From Desulfarculus sp. (lineage in GTDB: Bacteria; Desulfobacterota; Desulfarculia; Desulfarculales; Desulfarculaceae): 55,119 nucleotides of DNA. Both the position numbers and the translations under genes were made by a program. Shown here piece after piece: positions 38,320-52,894 of this stretch (positions within the stretch are counted from its first letter, which is position 1; each line of letters starts with the position of its first letter). The stretch is from assembly GCA_016218705.1 (NCBI GenBank), contig JACRDC010000055.1, forward strand, positions 1 to 55,119. The letters are read 5' to 3'. The notes beneath the pieces are model-generated. The model saw only the letters and a list, made by a program, of their open reading frames with translations, made no database searches and had not been told where the DNA came from.

Positions 38320-40734
<2,415 letters not shown>

Positions 40735-40760
40735 CCGCTAGCCGCGGCGGGGGTATACGG

Positions 40761-40838
40761 GGCGGGCCGGGTGCCCCCGGCCGGGCATTGCGGGTCGGGT
40801 GGCGTTGTGGCCTGGGCCAAGGCAGCCGGCTCCCGTAG
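40761..40838 (+). repeat. 75-bp dispersed repeat, copy 6 (after gyrB)
   Basis: It begins 27 bases after the gyrB stop: GCCGGGTGCCCCCGGCCGGG, CATTGCGGGTCGGG, a variable middle, then GCAGCCGGCTCCCGTAG. It has the same orientation relative to the gene as copies 1, 2, 4 and 7. Confidence 0.8.
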
Positions 40839-41025
40839 TAGGGCTCAACAGATAATACTGTTGCCACGACCAAGCGTAGGGCTGGTTAGCGAAGCGTAAC
40901 CCGCCATCCTCTTGATACGCCGTAGCTTGCTGCGGGGTGGTTCATTTTCCCCAGCAATCCCTTCCCTTGCGCCGGGTTTTGTGGTTTAATTGATTTATAG
41001 GCCAACACGACCCACGGGGCGCGCC

Positions 41026-41307
41026 ATGCCGACGGTCATAGACTCCATAACCGGCACCTCCTTCTACCAGCCCGAGTATCCGGGGCTGACCTACGCCGTG
41101 CCCCCTGCGCGGCCGCCCCAGTTGCTGCCCATGGTTGACCGCGCCCAGGACATGGCGCTCATGGCCGCCGACCACCCTTCCTGGATAGACCGCGCCAAGG
41201 ACCCCGCCCTCATGGCCGCCGATCATCCCACCTGGAAGGACCGGGGCCGCGACCCGGCCCTCTTGGCCGCCGACCACCGGGGCCTGGTGGTAAGCTCCCG
41301 GGTCTGA
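41026..41307 (+). CDS. Small protein with three tandem 16-residue repeats
   Basis: This 93-residue protein is not recognised. After 'MPTVIDSITGTSFYQPEYPG' and a proline-rich stretch it contains three copies of a 16-residue unit: DRAQDMALMAADHPSW, DRAKDPALMAADHPTW and DRGRDPALLAADHRGL (preceded by 'LLPMV', 'I' and 'K' respectively). There is no signal peptide or membrane helix. The regular D-R/D-x-A-L-x-A-A-D-H spacing suggests a bound metal or a structural repeat, but that is a guess. A GGGG site precedes the ATG. It stands alone between gyrB and the DUF305 gene. Confidence 0.6.
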   Translation: MPTVIDSITGTSFYQPEYPGLTYAVPPARPPQLLPMVDRAQDMALMAADHPSWIDRAKDPALMAADHPTWKDRGRDPALLAADHRGLVVSSRV

Positions 41308-41408
41308 GGCCAACCGTTTTCCCGCGCCCTCCCCGGCTCTCCTATTTTTCTGATAGACTAACAAGCAACCCAACCTCAAATCCAAAAATCCATCCCGGAG
41401 GGATACCC

Positions 41409-41801
41409 ATGTCCCAGCCACGCCCCTGCCTATTTCTGCCGGGCCTGCTCCTCCTGACCCTGCTCATGGCTGGGCAGGCCCTGGCCCAGGGCGATGACCC
41501 TGCCTCCAAGGGCTATGCCCAGGCCATGCAGCGCATGCACCAGGACATGTCCCTGGCCCCCAGCGGCGACGCGGACCAGGATTTCCTTCGCGGCATGATC
41601 CCCCACCACCAGGGGGCCATTGACATGGCCAAGGTGGTGCTGGAGCATGGCAAGGACCCCAAGGTCAAGAAGCTGGCCAGGCAGATCATCAAGGCCCAGG
41701 AAAAGGAGATCGCCCTGATGAAGGCCTGGCTGGCCAAGAAGCCGGCCGCCAAGCCCCAGGGACAGACCACCCCGTCCGCCGGACATGGCGTTCAGCACTA
41801 G
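41409..41801 (+). CDS. Secreted DUF305 protein (CopM-like)
   Basis: This 130-residue protein has a signal peptide (about residues 1-26, ending GQALA) and a four-helix ferritin-like DUF305 core. The signature is 'DADQDFLRGMIPHHQGAIDMAKVVLEHGKDPKVKKLARQIIKAQEKEIALMKAWL'. The Met/His residues (M-IPHHQGAIDM) resemble periplasmic copper-binding members such as CopM. A His/Lys/Pro tail ends GHGVQH. The start has a GGAG site ('CCCGGAGGGATACCC'). A metal-handling role is inferred from the family only. Confidence 0.9.
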   Translation: MSQPRPCLFLPGLLLLTLLMAGQALAQGDDPASKGYAQAMQRMHQDMSLAPSGDADQDFLRGMIPHHQGAIDMAKVVLEHGKDPKVKKLARQIIKAQEKEIALMKAWLAKKPAAKPQGQTTPSAGHGVQH

Positions 41802-41806
41802 GTGAA

Positions 41807-41821
41807 TTACAATATTGTAAC
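41807..41821. repeat. Small AT palindrome after the DUF305 gene
   Basis: TTACAATATTGTAA is a perfect palindrome just after the DUF305 stop. It opens the palindrome-rich 41802-42587 region and could be an operator or a decayed hairpin module. Confidence 0.5.
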
Positions 41822-41852
41822 TAAATTACGAACTGGTAAGGTGGCACCCTCA

Positions 41853-41909
41853 GGCTGGCCGGCCCTTCGGCCGCCAGGGCAGGCGTTCCGGCCGAAGGGC
41901 CGGCCAGCC
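41853..41909. repeat. Perfect 20-bp inverted repeat hairpin
   Basis: GGCTGGCCGGCCCTTCGGCC at 41853-41872 is exactly complementary to 41890-41909, with a 17-base loop. No T-tract follows, so it is not a standard terminator. It is the first strong member of the palindrome field downstream of DUF305 and metY. Confidence 0.85.
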
Positions 41910-41925
41910 AGGAGTCGCGCCTTTA

Positions 41926-42088
41926 ATACCAAGTTGCGATCAAACGAGTAGTTTGATCGAAACTTGGTATGCGGGCCATGGATGGCCCGCCGGGCGCGAA
42001 AGCGCCCGGGAGGCCGGGCAAAACCACGTTTTTGCCCGGCCGATCAGCAATCAAAGCCATGGATGGCTTTGATTGCATATTGGTATAA
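41926..42088. repeat. Five consecutive palindromes (hairpin array, copy B)
   Basis: In order: ATACCAAGTTGCGATCAAAC with its near-exact return arm (41926-41970); GCGGGCCATGGATGGCCCGC (41971-41990); CGGGCGC/GCGCCCG (41991-42010); GCCGGGCAAAA with TTTTGCCCGGC (42013-42040); GCAATCAAAGCCAT with ATGGCTTTGATTGC (42047-42076); then TTGGTAT. The modules also occur at 6828-7019 and, in reverse order, at 42408-42566. Confidence 0.88.
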
Positions 42089-42118
42089 GCTGGTCCGGCC
42101 CCACAGGGTTGGCGCCAA

Positions 42119-42187
42119 GGTCCGCATGGGAGCCGCATTGGCCGGCCGCAGTCCCTCCAGACCGAACTTTGCGGTCCCATGCGGACC
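42119..42187. repeat. 13-bp perfect inverted repeat with 43-base loop
   Basis: GGTCCGCATGGGA (42119-42131) returns as TCCCATGCGGACC (42175-42187). It sits among the hairpin arrays and has no partner elsewhere in the window that I could find. Confidence 0.75.
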
Positions 42188-42407
42188 CGGCACCTTGCCT
42201 GCCAGGCCGGGGGGCGGCACGCCTTCTTGGGTTGCCCGGCGGGCGTGACCGCTCGTCCCTGGAATATTGCCAATAGCGTGCCACTGCCTATCCGCAAGGG
42301 GCACGCCAGGCGATCCACCCTAATTTTGACTGCTATTTTAGTATCTTGACCAATAGACCCGCTGGCTGGCCCAGTCTGGGGCCGGTTGCCCCGGTCTGGG
42401 AACGGGC

Positions 42408-42566
42408 TCGTGAATTACAAATGCGTAATTCACGAGCCCGTCTTATACCGATCAGCAATCAAAGCCATCCATGGCTTTGATTGCTGACCGGCCGGGCAAA
42501 AGCGTGATTTTGCCCGGCCCGCATACCAAGTTGCGATCAAACTATTCACTTGATCGCAACTTTGGT
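42408..42566. repeat. Hairpin array, copy C (modules in reverse order)
   Basis: CGTGAATTAC with GTAATTCACG (42408-42433); GCAATCAAAGCCAT and its return arm ATGGCTTTGATTGC; GGCCGGGCAAAA with TTTTGCCCGGCC; then ATACCAAGTTGCGATCAAAC with a slightly altered return arm ending TTTGGTAT at about 42568. It carries the same modules as 41926-42088 but in the opposite order. It ends about 20 bases from the metY stop. Confidence 0.85.
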
Positions 42567-42587
42567 ATTAAACAAAGCGGCCCGGCC

Positions 42588-43919
42588 CTAACCCTGGCTG
42601 GCGGAGAGCGCCTCCTCCAGATCGGCGATTATGTCGGCCACGTCCTCGATACCCACTGAGATGCGCACCAGGTCCTGGCTGACCCCGGCGGCGGCCAGCT
42701 CCTCGGGGCCGAGCTGGCTATGGGTGGTGCTGGCCGGGTGGATCACCAGGGTCTTGGCGTCCAGGATGTTGGCCAGGTGGGAGCAGAGCCGCGCCGACTC
42801 GATGAAGCGCCGGCCCGCCTCCAGGCCGCCTTTCACACCAAAGCCGAAGACCGCGCTGGGGCCGCCGGGGAAATATCTCTTGGCCCGGGCATAGTCATGG
42901 TGGCTGGGCAGGCCGGCGTAGTTGACCCAGGCCACGGCCGGATGCCCCTCCAGGTACTCGGCCACCCGCTGGGCGTTGACGCAGTGGGCGCGGGCGCGCA
43001 GGGGCAGGGTCTCCAGGCCCTGCAGGATCAAAAAGCTGTTGAAGGGTGAGAGCGCCGCGCCGATGTCGCGCAACAAGCTGGTGCGCAGCTTGAGGATGTA
43101 CACCGGGCAGGCGGCCCCGGCCTGGGACGGATCGAAGCGGCAGAAGGCCTCCTGAAAATTGAGCCCGTGGTAGGAGGGGTCGGGCTGGGTCAGCTCGGGA
43201 TAGCGGTTTGCCCTGGTCCAATCGAAGCGCCCAGAATCCACCACCGCCCCGCCGATGCAGGTTCCGTGGCCGCCGATGATCTTGGTCAGCGAGTAGACCA
43301 CGATGTCGGCGCCGTAGTCCAGGGGGTTGCTCATGGGCGGCGGCGATACGGTGTTGTCCATCACCAGGGGCACGCCCTGTTCATGGGCCGCCGCCGCGAT
43401 GCCCGCCAGGTCGTCCACGTTGCAGCGGGGGTTGCCGATGGACTCGGTGAAGAACAGGCGCGTGTTCTGGTCCGCCGCCCGGCTGAAGTTGGCCGGGTCG
43501 CGGGAGTCCACGAAGCGCACCTCAATGCCCAGGCGGGCCAGGGTGTGGCTGAACAGGGTGCGCGTGCCGCCGTAGAGGTTGGCCCCGCTGACGATGTTCT
43601 GGCCAGCCTGGGTGATGCCCAGCACCGCGAAGAAGATGGCCGCCATGCCCGAGGAGGTGGCCAGGGCCCCGGCGGCCCCGTGCAGGGCGGCCAGGCGGTC
43701 CTCCAGCACCTGGGTGGTGGGGTTCATGATGCGGGTGTAGATGAACCCCGGCTGGCGCAGGGCAAACAGATCGGCGGCGTGGGCGGTGTCCTGAAATACA
43801 AAGCTGGTGGTCTGGTAGATGGGCACGGCCCGCGCCCCGGTCTGACGGTCGGGCTCCTGGCCGGCGTGCAGGGCCAGGGTCTGGGGTCCGGGCCGGTGGG
43901 GCGGATGGCTATTGCTCAT
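42588..43919 (-). CDS. metY: O-acetylhomoserine sulfhydrylase (MetY/Cys-Met family)
   Basis: This 443-residue PLP enzyme is predicted to make homocysteine (or methionine, with methanethiol) from O-acetylhomoserine and sulfide. It shows 'YTRIMNPTTQVLEDRLAALHGAAGALATSSGMAAI', 'LYGGTRTLFSHTL', 'ESIGNP', 'VMDNTVSPP' and the PLP lysine K213 in 'VYSLTKIIGGHGTCIGG'. Length (about 430-445) fits MetY better than the shorter MetB/MetC. The start has a GAGGAG site. It ends in the palindrome field. The substrate is inferred from family length and motifs. Confidence 0.9.
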   Translation of the reverse strand: MSNSHPPHRPGPQTLALHAGQEPDRQTGARAVPIYQTTSFVFQDTAHAADLFALRQPGFIYTRIMNPTTQVLEDRLAALHGAAGALATSSGMAAIFFAVLGITQAGQNIVSGANLYGGTRTLFSHTLARLGIEVRFVDSRDPANFSRAADQNTRLFFTESIGNPRCNVDDLAGIAAAAHEQGVPLVMDNTVSPPPMSNPLDYGADIVVYSLTKIIGGHGTCIGGAVVDSGRFDWTRANRYPELTQPDPSYHGLNFQEAFCRFDPSQAGAACPVYILKLRTSLLRDIGAALSPFNSFLILQGLETLPLRARAHCVNAQRVAEYLEGHPAVAWVNYAGLPSHHDYARAKRYFPGGPSAVFGFGVKGGLEAGRRFIESARLCSHLANILDAKTLVIHPASTTHSQLGPEELAAAGVSQDLVRISVGIEDVADIIADLEEALSASQG

Positions 43920-44125
43920 GGCGGCTCCTCATGGCGCGGGGTGGGTGTTTCCTATCAGCATAGCAGGCCCCGCCCGGCCATGGTCAAGGCCCGGCGCGCG
44001 GCCACGCGGGCCTTGCATCGGCCGGCCCACTGGTTTCTAATATTAACCATGGGCCACCTGTAATGATTGGACCCCCACCCACCAACGGCTGGCCGGCGCT
44101 TTGCCGGCCCGGCAAGGAGAGGACC

Positions 44126-44698
44126 ATGAGCGTTGAGATAGCCTGGCTAGAGGACTGGCAACAGGCCCTGGAGCGGGCCCAGGCCCAGGACAAGGCCATC
44201 TTCCTGGACTTCTTTTTGCCCACCTGAATCGGCTGCCAGCAGATGGGTGCGGTCACGTACCCCACGCACGCGGTGGCCGATTTTCTGAACAGCGAGATGG
44301 TGCCCCTCAAGCTGACACCCAATAGCGAGCCCCAGGCATCCACCTTCTGGGTGCGCTGGACCCCGGCCCTGTTCATCCTGGACCCCCAGGGCAACCACCA
44401 CCACGGCATGATCGGCTTCGTGCCACCGGCGGAGTTGGTGCCCCACCTGCTCCTGGGCCAGGCCCTGGCCCGTTTCGCCCACCACCGTTTCGACGACGCC
44501 CTGGCCAGCCTGGAGCGCCTGCTGGCGGGCCACGCCCAGAGCTACGCCGCGCCCCAGGCGGTGTATTACCGGGCCATCTGCCGCTACCGCGCCAGCAAGG
44601 ACCCCTCCCACCTCAAGGTGGGCCACCAGATACTGGCCGAGCAGTACCCAGCCAGCGAGTGGGTGGGGCGCACCCAGCCCTACACGCTGTTGCCCTAG
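44126..44698 (+). CDS. Predicted selenoprotein: thioredoxin-like with UxxC active site
   Basis: Reading from the ATG at 44126 (strong AAGGAG site), the frame meets TGA at 44225-44227 and continues open to TAG at 44698. It gives 190 residues if UGA is selenocysteine (residue 34). The peptide 'IFLDFFLPT-U-IGCQQMGAVTYP' is a thioredoxin-fold active site, and UGA replaces exactly the first Cys of CxxC (U34-I-G-C37). Downstream are 'RWTPALFILDPQG' with the cis-Pro loop and a helical C-terminus like related CxxC proteins. A SECIS-like hairpin follows the UGA. Conventional gene calling would report only 44243-44698. Confidence 0.85.
44225..44262 (+). promoter_or_regulatory. UGA plus SECIS-like hairpin
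   Basis: The UGA (44225-44227) is followed by a stem GGGTGC (44245-44250) and GTACCC (44257-44262) with the six-base loop GGTCAC. Bacterial SECIS elements place a hairpin with G-G-U in the apical loop some 16-37 bases after the UGA to bind SelB. Here the GG is about 24 bases away. Confidence 0.65.
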
Positions 44699-44732
44699 CC
44701 GCGCCCCGGCCCGAGCCGCCCAAAGACCAAGG

Positions 44733-44767
44733 CCCCCGCCGGCAGAACAGCGGCGGGGGTTGTTTTA
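44733..44767 (+). terminator. Rho-independent terminator after the selenoprotein gene
   Basis: CCCCCGCCG and CGGCGGGGG form a perfect nine-pair stem with a nine-base loop, followed by TTGTTTTA. It separates the thioredoxin-like gene from the Fic gene. Confidence 0.85.
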
Positions 44768-44887
44768 TGTAAGCAAATTTTAATATGGGCGGCACCAGGC
44801 AATCTTATTGAACGAAAACGGCCTTTGAGTTAAATAAGGGTAGCGTCAAGGCTCAGACCGTCAAACCATTGGCAGGAGCTGCCGAAC

Positions 44888-46021
44888 ATGACCCAGGCTG
44901 GCAGGGCCGGAACCTACATCCAGCAATCCGGCAACTACCGGGCCTTCATACCCAGGCCCCTACCTCCCGCTCCGCCCCTGGTGTACGACGACGAACTCCT
45001 GGGCCTGCTCTCCCTGGCCGATCAGGCCGTGGGGCGCCTGGACGCCGCCTCGGAACTGCTGCCCAACCCCGACTTGTTCGTGGCCATGTACGTCAACAAG
45101 GAAGCCGTGCTCTCCTCCCAGATCGAGGGCACCCAGGCCTCGCTCAATGATGTGCTGGAGGTTCAGGCCGGCGTGGTGCGCAAGGAGCGGGCCGGGGACG
45201 TGGGGGAGGTGGTCAACTACGTCAAGGCCATGAACCATGGCCTAGCACGCCTGGACTCCCTGCCTCTTTCCTTGCGCCTGATTCGGGAGATTCACGCCGA
45301 TCTTCTAAAGAACGTGCGCGGCTCGCGGCGGGACCCCGGGGAATTCCGGCGCACCAAAAATTGGATAGGCCCCAGCGGCACCAGCCTGAGTCAGGCCCTT
45401 TTCGTGCCCCCGCCCCAGCACGAGGTTCCCAAGGCCATGGGTGACCTGGAGAACTACCTCCACCTTCCAGCCCCGCCGCCCCCTCTGCTGGTCAAGGCCG
45501 GCCTGGCCCACGCCCAGTTCGAGACCATCCACCCCTTTTTGGACGGCAACGGACGCTTGGGGCGCCTGCTCATCACCTTCCTGCTCTGCCAGTGGGGCCT
45601 GCTCAAGAAGCCGTTGCTCTATCTGTCTCTTTATCTGAAAAAACACCGCCAGGAATACTACGAGCGCCTGCAGTCCGTGCGTGACTTGGGAGACTGGGAG
45701 GGGTGGCTGAAGTTCTTTTTGCGGGGCGTGGCCGAGGTGGCTGGCCAGGCCTCGGCCACGGCCTCGGCCATTCAAAGGCTGCGCAACGAGCACCTAAAAC
45801 TGATGGACGCCATACCCCAGGGAATGCGCCTATTGGAGTTGATGTTCAAAATGACCTTCATAACCGTCACCCTGGCCGGCAATTCCCTGGGTGTCTCCTA
45901 CCCCACCGCCCGCAAGGTCATCCAAAAATTCGTGGCCCTGGGACTGCTGCAAGAAATCACCAGCGGCCAGCGAAACCGGGTCTACAGCTACGCCTCCTAC
46001 CTGGCGCTGTTCCAGGATTGA
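44888..46021 (+). CDS. Fic family AMP transferase-like protein with inhibitory helix
   Basis: This 377-residue protein is a Fic protein. The catalytic motif 'HPFLDGNGRLGR' begins at His215 and is complete, so it should transfer AMP (or another nucleotide part) onto a target hydroxyl. An N-terminal inhibitory motif 'SSQIEG' (S76 to E80-G81) fits the class II (S/T)xxxE(G/N) rule, so activity is self-restrained. The C-terminal third is a winged helix ('SLGVSYPTARKVIQKFVALGLLQEITSGQRNRVYSY'). No antitoxin gene is adjacent, consistent with built-in inhibition. The start has a GGAG site. Confidence 0.94.
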   Translation: MTQAGRAGTYIQQSGNYRAFIPRPLPPAPPLVYDDELLGLLSLADQAVGRLDAASELLPNPDLFVAMYVNKEAVLSSQIEGTQASLNDVLEVQAGVVRKERAGDVGEVVNYVKAMNHGLARLDSLPLSLRLIREIHADLLKNVRGSRRDPGEFRRTKNWIGPSGTSLSQALFVPPPQHEVPKAMGDLENYLHLPAPPPPLLVKAGLAHAQFETIHPFLDGNGRLGRLLITFLLCQWGLLKKPLLYLSLYLKKHRQEYYERLQSVRDLGDWEGWLKFFLRGVAEVAGQASATASAIQRLRNEHLKLMDAIPQGMRLLELMFKMTFITVTLAGNSLGVSYPTARKVIQKFVALGLLQEITSGQRNRVYSYASYLALFQD

Positions 46022-46119
46022 CCGCCACCCCCACCGGCTGGCCTGGGCCATATTTAACATTTCTTTAATTGCAGACCCTCCAGGCGCGGCTTATTAAACT
46101 TTTTGGCCAAATTGTTTAA

Positions 46120-46412
46120 TACTATTTCAACAACCATCGTATGGTATTAGGTTGTTGGCTATTGATCCGGGCATCCTCTGGCCGGCGGGTTTTGATTTTT
46201 GGCCGCCCAAGCCCCGTGTCCCGCTCTTAGCCCGGCCATTCTTAGGGCACCGGCAGGGGGCTGCCATGATCCACCCGGGAAGGGATACGGGATCCCTGCG
46301 GCCCCTGCCCGCGCCAAGGCGGAGAGTCCACCCCGCGCCGGCAGCCGCATTAGCAAAGCCAGCATGGCCGGGCGGCTCTAGCGGGACACAAAAAGAAACC
46401 GCTTAGGTTTTC
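46120..46412. repeat. Long dispersed repeat, copy 2 (about 290 bp)
   Basis: Matches 142-432 over its whole length with about a dozen substitutions, including the CAACAACC and GGTTGTTG inverted repeat at the left end. No transposase fragment lies beside this copy. It is preceded by an AT-rich stretch (46045-46120), as copy 1 is. Confidence 0.85.
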
Positions 46413-46506
46413 TTGGGCCGCTGAAACGGTAAGGGTTGAACCCAGAGGAAATATGCCGAAAAACTATGCGTCTGATCTGAAATGCGTATAACAAGGACCC
46501 CTCTCC

Positions 46507-46896
46507 TTGCCAGATGCTCACCATCCCCTTTTCCAACGGCTAAAGACCTGGGCGCGCGGGCTGGCGCGAGAGGTGGCCGTTCTGGTCCTGGCCATGAAGC
46601 ACCCAGGCACGCCCTGGCCGGCCAAGGTGGTGGCGGCCTTGGTGGTGGCCTATGCCTTGAGCCCCATAGACCTGATACCGGATTTCGTGCCCGTGCTGGG
46701 CTACCTGGACGACCTGATCCTGCTGCCCCTGGGCATTGCCCTGGCCATCAGGCTGATTCCCCCCACGGTACTTGAGGACTGCCGCCGGCAGGCCAGGGAG
46801 AACCCGCCCCGCCTGGGTCTTGGTTTGGCGGGCGCGGTGGCTATAGTGGCCCTCTGGCTGTGGGCCCTCTACGCCCTTTACCGCTGCCTGGCATGA
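46507..46896 (+). CDS. DUF1232 (YkvA-like) membrane protein
   Basis: This 129-residue protein contains the DUF1232 core 'TPWPAKVVAALVVAYALSPIDLIPDFVPVLGYLDDLILLPLGIALAIRLIPP' (about residues 35-86) with the hallmark 'SPIDLIPDFIP' motif. A C-terminal membrane helix 'GAVAIVALWLWALYALYRCL' follows. The function of the family is unknown. It starts with TTG at 46507 behind a weak site, and the N-terminal 10-15 residues are uncertain. Confidence 0.87.
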   Translation: MPDAHHPLFQRLKTWARGLAREVAVLVLAMKHPGTPWPAKVVAALVVAYALSPIDLIPDFVPVLGYLDDLILLPLGIALAIRLIPPTVLEDCRRQARENPPRLGLGLAGAVAIVALWLWALYALYRCLA

Positions 46897-47019
46897 AGTG
46901 AGCTAGGGGCCTATGCTCACCGCTTCCGGTTACGCGCCGGCTTGACGCCCCCTGGGTCATGAATTAGCATGGGGTAAGCGTTGACCCCACCGCCTCCGCC
47001 TGCCTGCAAGGGAGATGAC

Positions 47020-47343
47020 ATGGCGCTTAGACTCCTGGCGTGGACCTGGCTGGCGGGCCTGGCCTGGCTGGCCGCTGGCTGCGCCACCTGGCACAACCCG
47101 TCCACCGGCGAGACCCGCGACTCACCGCCCAGCTATCCCCAATGCCAAAGGCCGGAGGTGGTGCGCGGGCTGGACCAGGAGTGCTGGCGGGCCTGCATGG
47201 ACCGCTGGTACCGCCTGCGCGGGCTCAGGAACTCCGGTGACTGCGACATGGAGTGCGCCAGGAGCGAGGGGCGCACGGTGATGGTGGACGACGAGGCCTG
47301 CAACGCCGAGAAGGCCCGTCAGGATGGCTGGATCAGCAAGTAG
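47020..47343 (+). CDS. Small cysteine-rich lipoprotein
   Basis: This 107-residue protein has a lipoprotein signal peptide: 'ALRLLAWTWLAGLAWLAAGC', with the lipobox L-A-A-G-C at about residues 17-21. The mature part has six further cysteines ('YPQCQRPE', 'QECWRACMDRWY', 'SGDCDMECARSEG' and 'DEACNAE'), which suggests disulfides in the periplasm. No known family is recognised. The start at 47020 has an AGGGAG site. Another lipoprotein gene follows 48 bases later. Confidence 0.75.
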   Translation: MALRLLAWTWLAGLAWLAAGCATWHNPSTGETRDSPPSYPQCQRPEVVRGLDQECWRACMDRWYRLRGLRNSGDCDMECARSEGRTVMVDDEACNAEKARQDGWISK

Positions 47344-47390
47344 CGGCCCCTCCCCTTTCTAACAACCCCCACCCGCGATGGCGAGGCGCC

Positions 47391-47852
47391 ATGAACAAGC
47401 CAACCTTTTTTTCGGGGTCCGCCCGCGTCTCCTTGCTGGCGCTGCTTCTGCTGGCCAGCCTGGCCCTGTCCTCTTGCATGCGCTCGGCGCCGGAGCCGCC
47501 GCCGGCCACCACCCGCGAGGTATTGGTGGTGCAGCGCCTGTCCTATGACGACGTCTGGCTGGCCGCCGTGCGCTCCATGACCAAGAACCTCAACGTCAAG
47601 CACCTGGACCAGAAGGAGGGGGTCATCAAGGGCCGCCTGACCGAGTGGGGCTTCACCGAGTACGTGCAGGTGAGCATCAAACCGCCCCAGTCCGGGGCCA
47701 TGAGCTACCGCGTGGAGGTGCTTAGCACCCGTCACCGCTCGGTGGTGATGCGCGACTGGTCCGCCTTCATCCTGGAGGACCTGCGCAAGACCATGGAGAG
47801 GATACCCGGCCACAAGACCGGCGACGTGACGGTGGTAAGCGAGCCCCTGTAG
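47391..47852 (+). CDS. Lipoprotein of unknown function
   Basis: This 153-residue protein starts at ATG 47391 and has a signal peptide with lipobox L-S-S-C ('LLALLLLASLALSSCMRS'). The mature domain, 'YDDVWLAAVRSMTKNLNVKHLDQKEGVIKGRLTEWGFTEYVQVSIKPP', resembles small BamC/NlpB-type alpha/beta repeats seen in outer membrane lipoproteins, but I cannot assign a family. It probably forms an operon with the upstream lipoprotein. The frame's upstream extension to 47253 is a shadow of that gene. Confidence 0.78.
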   Translation: MNKPTFFSGSARVSLLALLLLASLALSSCMRSAPEPPPATTREVLVVQRLSYDDVWLAAVRSMTKNLNVKHLDQKEGVIKGRLTEWGFTEYVQVSIKPPQSGAMSYRVEVLSTRHRSVVMRDWSAFILEDLRKTMERIPGHKTGDVTVVSEPL

Positions 47853-48061
47853 ACTCAAGGCCCGTTACCCCCAAAAGCGGCGAGGCCCCCCAGGGGCCCC
47901 GCCTACCAGCCTCTCGCAACCCGGGGTCAGGGGGGCTGGCGCCCCGGTGACCCCGAACCTTGTATCTCGCCGTGGTACTCGCCGGGTTAGGCCCTCGTTA
48001 ACCCGCCCTACGTTGGCCCTGTGGATATGCGGCCCCTGGTATTTGTTCTTCCGCAGTCTCG

Positions 48062-48134
48062 CGGCGGGAGCCGATGGCCCACGCCTTCTCCTCCATCACC
48101 ACCGGCCCGCATACGCCCCGTGGCGGGCACGCCA
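48062..48134 (-). repeat. 75-bp dispersed repeat, copy 7 (after dnaN)
   Basis: On the minus strand, directly after the dnaN stop, it reads TGGCGTGCCCGCCACGGGGC, GTATGCGGGCCGG, a variable middle, then CATCGGCTCCCGCCGC. Nearby, GGGTTAGGCCCTCGTTAACCC (47979-47999) is another small hairpin. Confidence 0.8.
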
Positions 48135-49250
48135 CTAGAGGCGCATGGGCATTATGACGCTGAGGAAGCCGGCGTCGCCCTCGCCCTTGATGACGCAGGG
48201 GTTCTGCTCGTCCACGAAGCTCAGGCTGATCTGCTCCGAGCGCATGGCCGCGCACAGGTCCAGGAAGTAGCGGGCGTTGAAGCCCACGCCGAAGGACTCG
48301 CCCTCGTAGTCCACCTCCAGGGCCTCGCGGGCCTCGCCCAGGTCGGGGTTGTTGCTGACCACTTCCAGGAGGCCGTCCTTGAAGTCCAGGCGCACGCCCT
48401 GGAAGCGGTCGGTGGCGATCAGCGAGACGCGCCTTAGCACGCCCTCGAAGGCCTGGCGGCCCAGCAGGGCCTTGCGCTTGGTGTTCTTGGGGATGACCAC
48501 CTCGTAGTCGGGGAAGGAGCCCTCCTGCATGCGCAGGATCAGCTTGACCTCGTCCTTATTGACCACGGCGTAGCGCTGGCTCAGGCCCAGCACCAGCTCG
48601 CCGCCCTCCTCGGCCAGCTTGCGCATCTCCGACACGCCCTTGCGGGGGATGATGACCCCGGCCTCAAGGGCGAACTCGCCCAGGCCTGGTATCTCCTTGT
48701 CAATGAGGGACAGGCGGTGGCCGTCGGTGGAGACGAAGCGCAGGCGGTGGGAATCGTCTTTTTTACGCTTCTGCACGTAGAGGCCGGCCAGGTTGAACCG
48801 GGTGTCCTCCTGGGAGATGGAGAAGATGGTCTTCTCGATCATCTCGCTCAAGACCTCGCCGGCGATGGTCAGTTGGGGGATGCCGTCCACCTGGGGCAGC
48901 TCGGGGTAGTCGCCAGCGGCCAGGCCCACCAGGTCATAGGTGGCCCGCCCGCTGGTGATGTGCAGGTAGTTGTTTTCCTTTTCCTTGAGATACACATCCT
49001 CGGCCGGCAGTTCCTTGGCGATCTCGTAGAGCTTGCGCGCCGGCACGGTGACCCTGCCGGGCTGGCTCACCCGGGCGGGGTACACGCCGATAAAGCTGGT
49101 TTCCAGGTCGGTGCCGGTGATGGTGAGCTGCTCGCCCTGGGCGTCCAGGAGCACGTTGCTTAAGATGGGCATGGAGGTGCGGCGCTCCACCACCGACTGG
49201 GACTTGGCCAGGCCCTTGGCCAGGTCTTCCTTGCGCACGGTCAGTTCCAT
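48135..49250 (-). CDS. dnaN: DNA polymerase III beta sliding clamp
   Basis: This 371-residue protein is the replication clamp. It begins 'MELTVRKEDLAKGLAKSQSVVERRTSMPILSNVLLDA', has the three clamp domains, and ends with the usual 'FLSVIMPMRL'. The start has a GGGAG site. It lies on the same strand as dnaA but is separated from it by mscL and a lysozyme-like gene (about 1.8 kb) rather than following it directly. The usual next gene, recF, is missing, and the dnaN stop is followed by repeat DNA. Confidence 0.98.
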   Translation of the reverse strand: MELTVRKEDLAKGLAKSQSVVERRTSMPILSNVLLDAQGEQLTITGTDLETSFIGVYPARVSQPGRVTVPARKLYEIAKELPAEDVYLKEKENNYLHITSGRATYDLVGLAAGDYPELPQVDGIPQLTIAGEVLSEMIEKTIFSISQEDTRFNLAGLYVQKRKKDDSHRLRFVSTDGHRLSLIDKEIPGLGEFALEAGVIIPRKGVSEMRKLAEEGGELVLGLSQRYAVVNKDEVKLILRMQEGSFPDYEVVIPKNTKRKALLGRQAFEGVLRRVSLIATDRFQGVRLDFKDGLLEVVSNNPDLGEAREALEVDYEGESFGVGFNARYFLDLCAAMRSEQISLSFVDEQNPCVIKGEGDAGFLSVIMPMRL

Positions 49251-49440
49251 AGAGACTCCCTCGAGGGATGGGTTGGCGTTTGGGCCTTACCATACCCCAG
49301 GTCTAGGGCGCCTGGCAAGGGCTGGATTCCCAATTTGAGGCCTTATCAACAACCGCTAGTGTAGAAGCCTTTGATGGCACACTACTGGTAGGCATATTAT
49401 TCTGGGCTGGCCGGGTAGCCGAATGGTGCCGGCCAGGCTA

Positions 49441-49881
49441 TCAGCCCTCCTTGATCTCCGCCGTGCAGTGGCCGCAGCGAATCGCCTTGACCGGCACGGC
49501 CATCAGGCAATAGGGGCAGTCCCTGGTCTTGGCCTCCTTGGGCTTTTGCAGCCTGTTGACCCCGCGCACCAGGAGGAAGACTGCGAAGGCCACGATGAAG
49601 AAGTTGATCAACACGTTGAGGAACAGGCCCAGGTTGAGGGTCACGGCCCCGGCCTTGGCCGCCGCGGCCACCGTGGGGTAGGGTCCGGCCTCGGCGCCCT
49701 GCTTGAGCACCAGGAAGAAGTCGGAAAAGTCGGCGTTGCTCAAGAGCAGCCCCAGGGGCGGCATGAGGATGTCGCTGACCAGGGATTTGACGATGCCCCC
49801 GAAGGCCGCGCCGATGATGATGCCCACGGCCATGTCCACCACGTTGCCCCGCATGGCGAACTCTTTGAATTCCTTCCACAT
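49441..49881 (-). CDS. mscL: Large-conductance mechanosensitive channel MscL
   Basis: This 146-residue channel opens under membrane tension to release solutes. The N-terminal amphipathic helix and TM1 are 'WKEFKEFAMRGNVVDMAVGIIIGAAFGGIVKSLVSDILMPPLG', and TM2 is 'VLINFFIVAFAVFLLVRGVNRL'. The C-terminal tail has two Cys pairs (CPYC and CGHC), a zinc-ribbon-like addition seen in some MscL proteins. AAGGAGATAGGCC precedes the ATG. It lies between dnaN and the lysozyme-like gene. Confidence 0.96.
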   Translation of the reverse strand: MWKEFKEFAMRGNVVDMAVGIIIGAAFGGIVKSLVSDILMPPLGLLLSNADFSDFFLVLKQGAEAGPYPTVAAAAKAGAVTLNLGLFLNVLINFFIVAFAVFLLVRGVNRLQKPKEAKTRDCPYCLMAVPVKAIRCGHCTAEIKEG

Positions 49882-49978
49882 GGCCTATCTCCTTTTCGGT
49901 TATCAGCCGTTTGGCGTATCTCGGGCCAGACGAGCCTGGCCACCGCCCTGGCCTTATTCCCGGCCGCGGGCCGTGAGC

Positions 49979-50470
49979 CTATAGCACCTCCGGTCCCTCG
50001 GCAACCAGGGACTGGTAGGCATCCTCCACCTTGCGGATGTAGTCCTGGGGCACGATCTGGTCCTTGAAGCCGCCGCTGTTGTAGGCGTCGGCGATCTGCT
50101 CCAGGGTGGTGGCCCCGCGCCCCACGATGCGCTGGTTGATAAGCTTGACGGCCATCCTGACGCACTCGGATGGCTGGCCCAGCTCGGGCGGCGATCCTTC
50201 ATAGCCCAGCTCGTGGGCGGTGACGTACATGATCTGCAACGGCCCCCAACTGGCGGCGGCATCGTCTCCGTACCGGTCATACAGCGCTTGGTCGCAATAT
50301 CGGCCCCCCGGGCGATAGGCCGGCTCCACCCTGCATTGGTTGTTGAAGCCGCCGCTGGACTCCACCACGCTCAGGGCCATGAGCAACAGGGCCGGGTCCA
50401 GGCCGGCGGGAGCGTTCAGGGAACCAGCGTGTTTTTGGATGACCTGGTGGGTCTCTTTTTCGATGCGCAT
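49979..50470 (-). CDS. Lysozyme-like/soluble lytic transglycosylase domain protein
   Basis: This 163-residue protein matches the lysozyme fold: 'LLMALSVVESSGGFNNQCRVEPAY' provides the likely catalytic Glu (about residue 37), then 'SWGPLQIMYVTAHELGY' and 'IADAYNSGGFKD'. There is no signal peptide, so if it reaches the wall it must be exported another way; phage-type enzymes behave so. Start with a GAGG site. Its prophage or housekeeping origin is unclear. Confidence 0.75.
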   Translation of the reverse strand: MRIEKETHQVIQKHAGSLNAPAGLDPALLLMALSVVESSGGFNNQCRVEPAYRPGGRYCDQALYDRYGDDAAASWGPLQIMYVTAHELGYEGSPPELGQPSECVRMAVKLINQRIVGRGATTLEQIADAYNSGGFKDQIVPQDYIRKVEDAYQSLVAEGPEVL

Positions 50471-51099
50471 GACTTGCCTCTATATCTTCCGGGGAGACAA
50501 GATGACGATGATCTCCCCGCGCCAGGAGCGTCTCCTCCACGGATCGAGGGGACTGGTCCGGTCTGGGACTGATATCAGGGTAAACCCCGCAACGGGAAAC
50601 CGGCAACGGCTCTCTGGATCGGGGGCCAAGAAGTGAGGTTGTTCCGGGTGGGCGCGGATCATCCCAGGGACGAAGGTGGCTGGCGAGAATCCGGGTGGAG
50701 TGAAAATCCCTCTGGGGCGCGTGCTGCCCACCAGGCCTTTCGTCTCGCTCGCGCTAGGGATTTGGCCGGACGCCGCCGGGAAGGGCGCTCTCCCAGTTCG
50801 CCAGGCCCCGGCCTTAACCCTTTCCCTGATGATTTCATGGCCCGCCAGACTGGCCAGCCGTGGCTGGAGATTGCTCCTCGCTGGCCAGTCTGGCGTACTT
50901 CGGCTGGGGCCGGCTGGTTTCAGCCCCCGCTGTATGAAGGAAGGATATGAGTTAATACTCTTAAGTCATAAGAATAATGTTGGCGGTGAAAATGGTGGAT
51001 TAGTGGAGAAGTGGCCCAACCAGGCGACATGCTTGCTGGCGCCCGGCCGGACCTTTCCACCGCCTGTGTACGGCCTCCACCGCCCCGGGCGGTTGGGGC
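50471..51099. other. Intergenic stretch downstream of dnaA, no gene seen
   Basis: About 630 bases. Several short frames exist but none has a plausible site and composition. It contains the hairpin at 50843-50895 and a small AT-rich patch (about 50940-50975). I found no cluster of DnaA boxes. Confidence 0.5.
50843..50895. repeat. Perfect 16-bp inverted repeat downstream of dnaA
   Basis: CGCCAGACTGGCCAGC (50843-50858) and GCTGGCCAGTCTGGCG (50880-50895) are exactly complementary, with a 21-base loop. No T-tract is present. The GGCC-AG arms recall the hairpin at 41853. Confidence 0.8.
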
Positions 51100-52479
51100 C
51101 TATACTCCACCATCCTTCAACCTGGACGCACCGCTGACCCCACCCTCGGTCAGCAGGCGCTCGGTGGAGCGCACCAGCTCGGCCAGGTCCGGGTTGTCGC
51201 GGAGCATCTCCTCGATCTTCTTGACGCCCTTTACCACGGTGGAGTGGTCCTTGCCGCCAAAGGCGCGGCCGATCTCGGGGAAGGAGGCGCGGGTCAGCCG
51301 GCGGGCCAGGTACATGGCCACCTGGCGGGGCTGGCTCACCTCACGGGTCTTGCGCGAGCCCTTGAGGTCCGAGACCTTGAGTCCGAACTGGCCGGCCACC
51401 GTGGAGAGCACCTCCTCGATGCTCACCTGGCGCTCGCTGACCAGGGGACCCACCACCCGGCGCACCAGGTCCAGGGTGATCTCCACCCCCTGGAAGGAGC
51501 TGATGGCCACGATGCGCGTCAGGTAGCCCTCCAGCACCCTTATGTTGCCCTCGGGCTGCTTGGCCAAGAAGGTGGCCACCTTGCGCGAAAGATCCAGTCC
51601 GCGCTCGGCGGCCTTCTTCTGCAGGATGGCGATCTTGGTCTCCTCGTCGGGGGGCTGCAGGTCCACCATCAGGCCCCACTCGAAGCGGGTGCGCAGGCGC
51701 TTCTCCAGGCCGGGGATGTCCTTGGGCATCTTGTCGCTGGTGACCACGATCTGCTTGCCCGCCTGGTACAGGGTGTTGAAGGTGTGGAAAAACTCCTCCT
51801 GGGTGCGCTCGCGGCCGGCCAGGAACTGGATGTCGTCCAGGAGCAGGCAGTCCACCTGGCGGTACTTTTCCTGGAAGCGGGCGATGCCGTCGAAGCGCAT
51901 GGCCTGGATCAGCTCGTTGGTGAAGCCCTCGGCCGAGCCGTAGTGCACCAGGCCGCCGGGGTGGTGCAGCAGGAAGTGGTTGCCCACGGCGGTGATGAGG
52001 TGGGTCTTGCCCAGGCCGGCCCCCCCGAAGATGAACAGGGGGTTGTACTGGCGCCCCGGTTGGTCGGCCACGGCCAGGCAGGCCGCCCGGGCCAGCTCGT
52101 TGCAGTTGCCCACCACGAAGGTGTCAAAGGTGTAGCGCGGGTTGAGAGAGGCCGGGGCCAGGGGCCGCGCCGCCGGGGGCGTGGCCACCGGCCGGGCCAA
52201 CTGGGCCGGGGCCAACTCCGTGGACACCGTTACCTCGAATACCTCGAAGTCCACGGCCAGGGCATGGCCGGCGGCCTGGCTCAGGGCATGGTCCAGGATG
52301 GCGCCGTAGCGCTCGCGTATCCAATCGGCGTAAAAGCGGTTGGGCACCAGGACCACCGCCCGGTCCTCGTCTTCCTCCAAGCGCAGGCTCAGGGGAGTAA
52401 ACCAAGTTTCGTATTCCTGGGGGCTGACCAGGGACCGCAACTGCTGACTGGCGCCAAGCCATATATCCGGTGTGGACAA
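51100..52479 (-). CDS. dnaA: Chromosomal replication initiator protein DnaA
   Basis: This 459-residue AAA+ initiator has domain I ('SQQLRSLVSPQEYETWFTPLSLRL', about residues 12-35) and an Ala/Pro linker (about 90-112). Domain III has Walker A 'GGAGLGKT' (153-160) and Walker B 'LLLDDIQFL'. Domain IV has the DNA-binding signature 'QVAMYLARRLTRASFPEIGRAFGGKDHSTVVKGVKKI'. The frame is open upstream to 52749, but that extension is not DnaA-like. I chose TTG 52479, with GAGGTG 5 bases upstream; GTG 52491 is possible. TTG-TCC-ACA, the first three codons, form a DnaA-box-like 9-mer. Confidence 0.97.
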   Translation of the reverse strand: MSTPDIWLGASQQLRSLVSPQEYETWFTPLSLRLEEDEDRAVVLVPNRFYADWIRERYGAILDHALSQAAGHALAVDFEVFEVTVSTELAPAQLARPVATPPAARPLAPASLNPRYTFDTFVVGNCNELARAACLAVADQPGRQYNPLFIFGGAGLGKTHLITAVGNHFLLHHPGGLVHYGSAEGFTNELIQAMRFDGIARFQEKYRQVDCLLLDDIQFLAGRERTQEEFFHTFNTLYQAGKQIVVTSDKMPKDIPGLEKRLRTRFEWGLMVDLQPPDEETKIAILQKKAAERGLDLSRKVATFLAKQPEGNIRVLEGYLTRIVAISSFQGVEITLDLVRRVVGPLVSERQVSIEEVLSTVAGQFGLKVSDLKGSRKTREVSQPRQVAMYLARRLTRASFPEIGRAFGGKDHSTVVKGVKKIEEMLRDNPDLAELVRSTERLLTEGGVSGASRLKDGGV

Positions 52480-52894
52480 AGTACACCTCACCCGTGATTT
52501 GCTGTTGTTTAATTTGGCAATAGGCTGGCGTCGCAGTCCGGTTGGCGCCTCCCACGGGGGGAGCTCTGGGCAGAGTACCGAGCCGGCTACGGGTTGTTTT
52601 GATTTTAATACCAACTGTTCGTAATATGCAAGCCCAATGTGGTCACTTGTGCAAAGCCGGGGTTTGTCTGGGCGTGTCCGGCCGGCCTGGGGCTGGTGCT
52701 CAAGGCGGCCCAGGGCCAGACCGGGGAAGGGCGCCCTGCCCCTGGCCATTTGCCGCTTGACAGGCCGGCGGCCTTAAAATAACTTTGACAAGAGCTATTA
52801 CCAACTAAAAAGCTCTGAAAATTAACGCCTTGGCCCCGGGGGCCGCCGGGCGCCACCCGGGGCCGGCCCACGCTGGGGCCAGGGCCAGCCAACC
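52480..52894. other. Divergent dnaA-cooC intergenic region
   Basis: The 415-base gap holds the promoters of both genes. On the dnaA side there is an AT-richer block with TATTAAAA-type sequence (about 52600-52625, including ATACCAA as in the hairpin modules). On the cooC side is the TTGACA-containing stretch at 52757-52785. One TTGTGCAA lies at about 52645. A replication origin here is possible but unproven. Confidence 0.5.
52757..52785 (+). promoter_or_regulatory. Putative promoter of cooC
   Basis: TTGACA (52757-52762), 17 bases, TAACTT (3 of 6). A second TTGACA follows at about 52784. It lies 110 bases before the cooC start in an otherwise GC-rich gap. Weak -10, so tentative. Confidence 0.35.

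Follow-up and report, generated by a model that had tools for sequence, protein, structure and literature searches.

A probable thioredoxin-fold selenoprotein encoded across an in-frame UGA in Desulfarculus, and its homologues in the Desulfobacterota

Does a TGA codon at the active site of a thioredoxin-like gene interrupt that gene, or does it encode selenocysteine (Sec)? The question is raised by a locus in a 55,119-nucleotide stretch of Desulfarculus sp. DNA (contig JACRDC010000055.1; hereafter the window), where the original prediction, made from the sequence alone, had read a hidden selenoprotein. We examined the reading frame, the RNA downstream of the TGA, homologues across the phylum, the Sec machinery of the genomes that carry them and the predicted structure of the product.

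The gene and its reading frame

The frame proves to be open on both sides of a single TGA, as had been predicted: positions 44126–44698 form one 190-residue gene whose sole interruption lies at codon 34. A ribosome site had also been proposed upstream, and AAGGAG is found there. Translation with table 11 yields only an ORF that begins at Met40 and lacks the active site, which is the truncation that had been foreseen. The features of the locus are as follows.

44126..44698, + strand: predicted selenoprotein CDS, 190 aa, Sec34; thioredoxin (Trx) domain at residues ~1–108, TPR-like helices at ~109–190
44225..44227, + strand: UGA codon of residue 34, putatively decoded as selenocysteine; TGA at that column in 65/65 aligned Sec members
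44234..44236, + strand: TGC, Cys37, the resolving Cys of UxxC; kept in 65/65 Sec members
44114..44119, + strand: Shine-Dalgarno-like AAGGAG in the sequence, 6 nt 5' of the ATG
44357..44365, + strand: W78-T79-P80, thioredoxin cis-Pro loop; W in 63/65, T in 65/65 and P in 65/65
44243..44698, + strand: truncated ORF from table 11; start Met40 within the active-site helix, without an upstream ribosome site

The active-site motif of the product (MSVEIAW...DFFLPTUIGCQQMGAVTYP...WTP...) is UIGC, in which Sec34 would replace the first Cys of the thioredoxin site. Pfam models Thioredoxin_7, DsbH and Thioredoxin_2 match the 190-aa product above their cut-offs, the C-terminus is TPR-like and the sequence shows no sign of a signal peptide.

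Substitutions relative to a Desulfarculus MAG, 90% identical in protein (its gene is identical to the G054 copy and was therefore counted once), provide a measure of coding in the part that standard annotation discards. The 33 codons 5' of the TGA contain 8 synonymous and 4 non-synonymous changes, as against 5 synonymous and 37 non-synonymous changes in that frame upstream of the ATG, where indels may inflate the latter number. This indicates that the part upstream of the TGA is coding. Sequence comparison confirms 44126–44698 as one continuous gene with an in-frame UGA.

The gene sits in a gyrB-dnaN-dnaA region (38347–52773 of the window). Among the homologues, proximity to dnaN (~3–4 kb) is confined to relatives of the same family, G042 with its Cys form among them; no neighbour gene is conserved within 1.5–2 kb, and none points to a pathway.

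Homologues across the phylum

Homologues, 90 copies in all, occur in 83/395 genomes surveyed from the phylum, including 6 of the 63 genomes of the class. The frame is interrupted by a single TGA, and by no further stop, in 79/90 copies; the other 11/90 have no TGA. In all 65 distinct Sec-type copies that were aligned, the TGA shares one column and the resolving Cys follows as the third residue after it. Outside the Sec type, that column holds Cys in seven distinct sequences, and one sequence has neither Sec nor Cys. The alignment with Cys homologues thus places the TGA at the first Cys of CxxC, as had been claimed, and its recurrence in independent genomes shows that it is not a sequencing error. 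Positions W7, F29, U/C34, T79, P80, G97 and L163 are invariant in the family alignment. Four genomes (G362, G046, G432 and G291) contain two or three selenoprotein copies each, some of the matches being shorter. Plasmid records yielded one distant Trx only and no closer match.

The hairpin downstream of the UGA

A hairpin with a GGU loop had been predicted about 24 bases beyond the TGA. It is found there and is conserved in the 65 aligned homologues:

44245..44262, + strand: SECIS hairpin GGGUGC-GGUCAC-GUACCC; stem 44245–44250/44257–44262, loop GGUCAC 44251–44256

The loop starts 23 nt past the UGA and the 18-mer has a minimum free energy (MFE) of -11.6 kcal/mol; alternatively, 7 bp enclose a 4-nt GUCA loop, and the spacing is 23–24 nt across the two pairings. 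The window hairpin falls within the published limits for a bacterial SECIS (bSECIS), namely a loop of 3–9 nt with G within its first two positions, a stem of 4–16 bp, a spacing of 16–37 nt and MFE <= -7.5. The single-sequence fold of 51 nt is unremarkable (z -0.97), so that the evidence for the hairpin is comparative and comes from the 65 aligned homologues. An Rfam search of the window gave no match, although such a search is uninformative for this hairpin.

Counted from the TGA, the first 60 nt of all 65 Sec members give a gap-free alignment, in which columns 21–26 pair with columns 33–38 as a six-pair helix (93.6% of cells paired), with compensatory double changes in four of the six pairs (A-U to G-C 13 times and U-A to A-U four times). 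None of 500 shuffles matched the pairing percentage or the covariation score, pairing falls to 21–66% when the partner is shifted by 1–3 columns, and the second loop base, G28, is invariant. Codon choice points the same way: the Thr codon of the 3' arm is ACG in 49/51 members, compared with 20% across the rest of those genes (p ~1e-31, uncorrected for kinship), and GTT, GCG and GAT are likewise enriched, so that selection acts on these bases over and above the encoded protein. The published bSECIS model fits 47 of 65 Sec members (45 at the same position), none of seven Cys members and 70 of 260 (27%) control stretches. In a subgroup, Ala (GCG) in place of Thr breaks one pair; by inspection, re-pairing around a GGUC loop is possible. 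Judged from the alignment, the hairpin is a bacterial SECIS under selection.

Sec machinery and decoding of the UGA

The host genome (4.2 Mb, 99% complete) contains all four genes on which the original prediction depended: selA, selB and selD, each above cut-off, and selC, the tRNA-Sec with anticodon TCA (found by ARAGORN). Its SelD gene (L022, G000:C43:50566-51486) has an in-frame TGA and is probably a selenoprotein gene as well. The further argument from a Wood-Ljungdahl lifestyle stands in so far as a gene for CdhD (acetyl-CoA synthase delta) lies within the window; it is circumstantial only and says nothing about the selenoprotein gene itself. In two MAGs of one genus, a second selB adjoins a second tRNA-Sec (G067:C163:452-2487 and G138:C258:587-1651); G067 contains a pair of each, both of its selB being full-length, and either two Sec systems or contamination could account for this.

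The family tree requires three or more exchanges of Sec and Cys. The Cys-form genome G339 and the Sec-form genome G410 are congeners and sisters with moderate support (98/42); G410 has selA, a full-length selB and tRNA-Sec, whereas G339 lacks all three. The Cys-form genomes G252, G334 and G424 also lack selA, an above-cut-off selB and tRNA-Sec, and the Cys-form genome G042 retains the Sec machinery. Overall, selA was called in 70/74 Sec-form as against 5/9 Cys-form genomes (Fisher p 0.004, uncorrected for kinship), an association that is weak alone because 355/395 genomes have selA. Of the four Sec-form genomes in which selA was not called, every one carries tRNA-Sec and three carry selB as well.

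Two readings without selenium have to be weighed against these data. In one, an ordinary Cys thioredoxin-like gene has acquired a nonsense mutation or a sequencing error and is a pseudogene, which would agree with only a fragment being visible to standard gene calling. We give this almost no credence, because dozens of families, in independent genomes, have the same TGA, the sequence on both sides of it is under purifying selection and the SECIS is conserved. In the other, the UGA acts as a regulated stop or is decoded as another amino acid (Cys, Trp or Gly), and the Cys found as the replacement in relatives would agree with this. That reading is also very improbable: the hairpin fits a SelB-type bSECIS and is absent from the Cys forms, selA, selB and tRNA-Sec are all absent in four of the nine Cys-form genomes, and TGA serves as the stop codon of other genes in the window. 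Taken together, the sequence evidence supports reading codon 34 as selenocysteine.

Fold and proposed function

AlphaFold with the family alignment gave a model with pLDDT 97 and pTM 0.92, comprising helix 11–21, strand 25–29, helix 35–44, strands 59–63, 81–85 and 91–96, and helices from 101 to 188. Sec34 directly precedes helix 35–44, a thioredoxin-like placement. Model and alignment together show a Trx fold, an active site at the N-terminus of a long helix and Pro80 in the predicted cis-Pro loop. VIA aligns residues ~1–120 to Thioredoxin_7, DsbH and DsbD-gamma structures (Z 13–15.6, rmsd 2.0–3.4 Å). The best Foldseek matches by E-value are YbbN/CnoX (3qdn and 3qou) over the whole length (E 2e-8, TM 0.44/0.30, rmsd 10.8 Å). 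Neither the VIA nor the Foldseek list names a full-length match with the same domain packing.

The product of 44126–44698 is very probably a cytosolic Trx-fold selenoprotein with the redox role proposed here, and the model suggests that it is most likely a Sec-dependent thiol:disulfide oxidoreductase. In such an enzyme, (i) Sec34 would be the attacking selenolate and Cys37 the resolving thiol; (ii) the pair would exchange, most likely reduce, disulfides of client proteins; (iii) the TPR-like C-terminal helices could hold clients or partners; and (iv) the selenenyl-sulfide might be reset by thioredoxin reductase or thioredoxin.

A narrower form of this explanation would make the protein a Sec chaperedoxin, i.e. 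a CnoX/YbbN-like holdase in which the Trx domain reduces clients, the TPR part binds them and GroEL perhaps receives them. The whole-length rank of YbbN/CnoX among the PDB matches and the generic TPR models that match the C-terminus in many members speak for it; the TM scores and an rmsd above 10 Å indicate that the two domains pack differently, and the Trx domain alone is closer to the DsbD-gamma/DsbH/Thioredoxin_7 proteins, so that we consider this form unlikely. Slightly less likely still is that, in place of a general disulfide oxidoreductase, the gene encodes a peroxidase that depends on Sec or a protein that donates electrons specifically to a peroxiredoxin (Prx), Msr or a sulphur-metabolism enzyme. 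Selenocysteine favours peroxide chemistry and the host phylum is rich in selenoproteins, but UxxC with a cis-Pro loop is the arrangement of thioredoxins and not of Prx, and the homologue neighbourhoods showed neither a Prx nor an Msr gene linked to the family. A general oxidoreductase role remains the preferred reading.

Relation to known families

The closest catalogued candidate is the 'thiol:disulfide interchange protein' selenoprotein family (PF13098, UxxC, WP_011366075.1) of Geobacter metallireducens, G. uraniireducens and Syntrophus aciditrophicus (PMC1794560, PMC13188914). Both families have a Trx-like fold and UxxC, and PF13098 matches 65/65 aligned members of the family studied here. 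The latter has no signal peptide and has a TPR-like C-terminus, but the two families may be one and the same. One genome, G141, also encodes a second Trx-like selenoprotein candidate (L099:60-520, G141:C2; PF13098, signal peptide, ~150 aa, WUTFC), which shares 28% identity over the Trx part with that genome's own member of the studied family and may belong to the known family. The existence of this separate PF13098 protein makes it likelier, though unproven, that the two families are distinct.

Other known systems share single features. In both sequence and fold, the Trx domain comes closest to DsbD gamma, DsbH and Thioredoxin_7 proteins (2fwe, 2ju5 and 2kuc), but these have Cys in place of Sec and no TPR part, and DsbD is a membrane protein. 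CnoX/YbbN chaperedoxins are nearest in architecture (Trx + TPR), but differ in domain packing, give no sequence-family match and lack Sec. TsoB (NF045694), VPGUxxT (NF041383) and Trx7/PDZ (NF041199) also contain Sec in Trx-like domains and match weakly; their motifs and architectures differ and the scores are far under the curated cut-offs (e.g. 27.9 vs 805 bits). No NCBIfam 20.0 model exceeds its curated cut-off for any scanned member, and the 2026 catalogue of 119 prokaryotic selenoprotein families has no clear entry, the sole possible overlap being the 'thiol:disulfide interchange protein'. On balance, we lean towards an uncatalogued selenoprotein family, mostly with Sec and rarely with Cys, of cytosolic Trx-TPR proteins with UIGC...AVTYP in about one-fifth of the genomes of the phylum, possibly a Sec-based chaperedoxin.

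Implications

The family is a probable new entry in the list of Sec proteins. With Sec outnumbering Cys by ~7:1 (Sec in 79/90 copies), its active site is missed by standard gene calling in most genomes. Furthermore, the congeners G410 and G339 differ by a natural Sec/Cys swap that extends to the SECIS and the Sec machinery, and this pair would allow the benefit of Sec to be tested directly.
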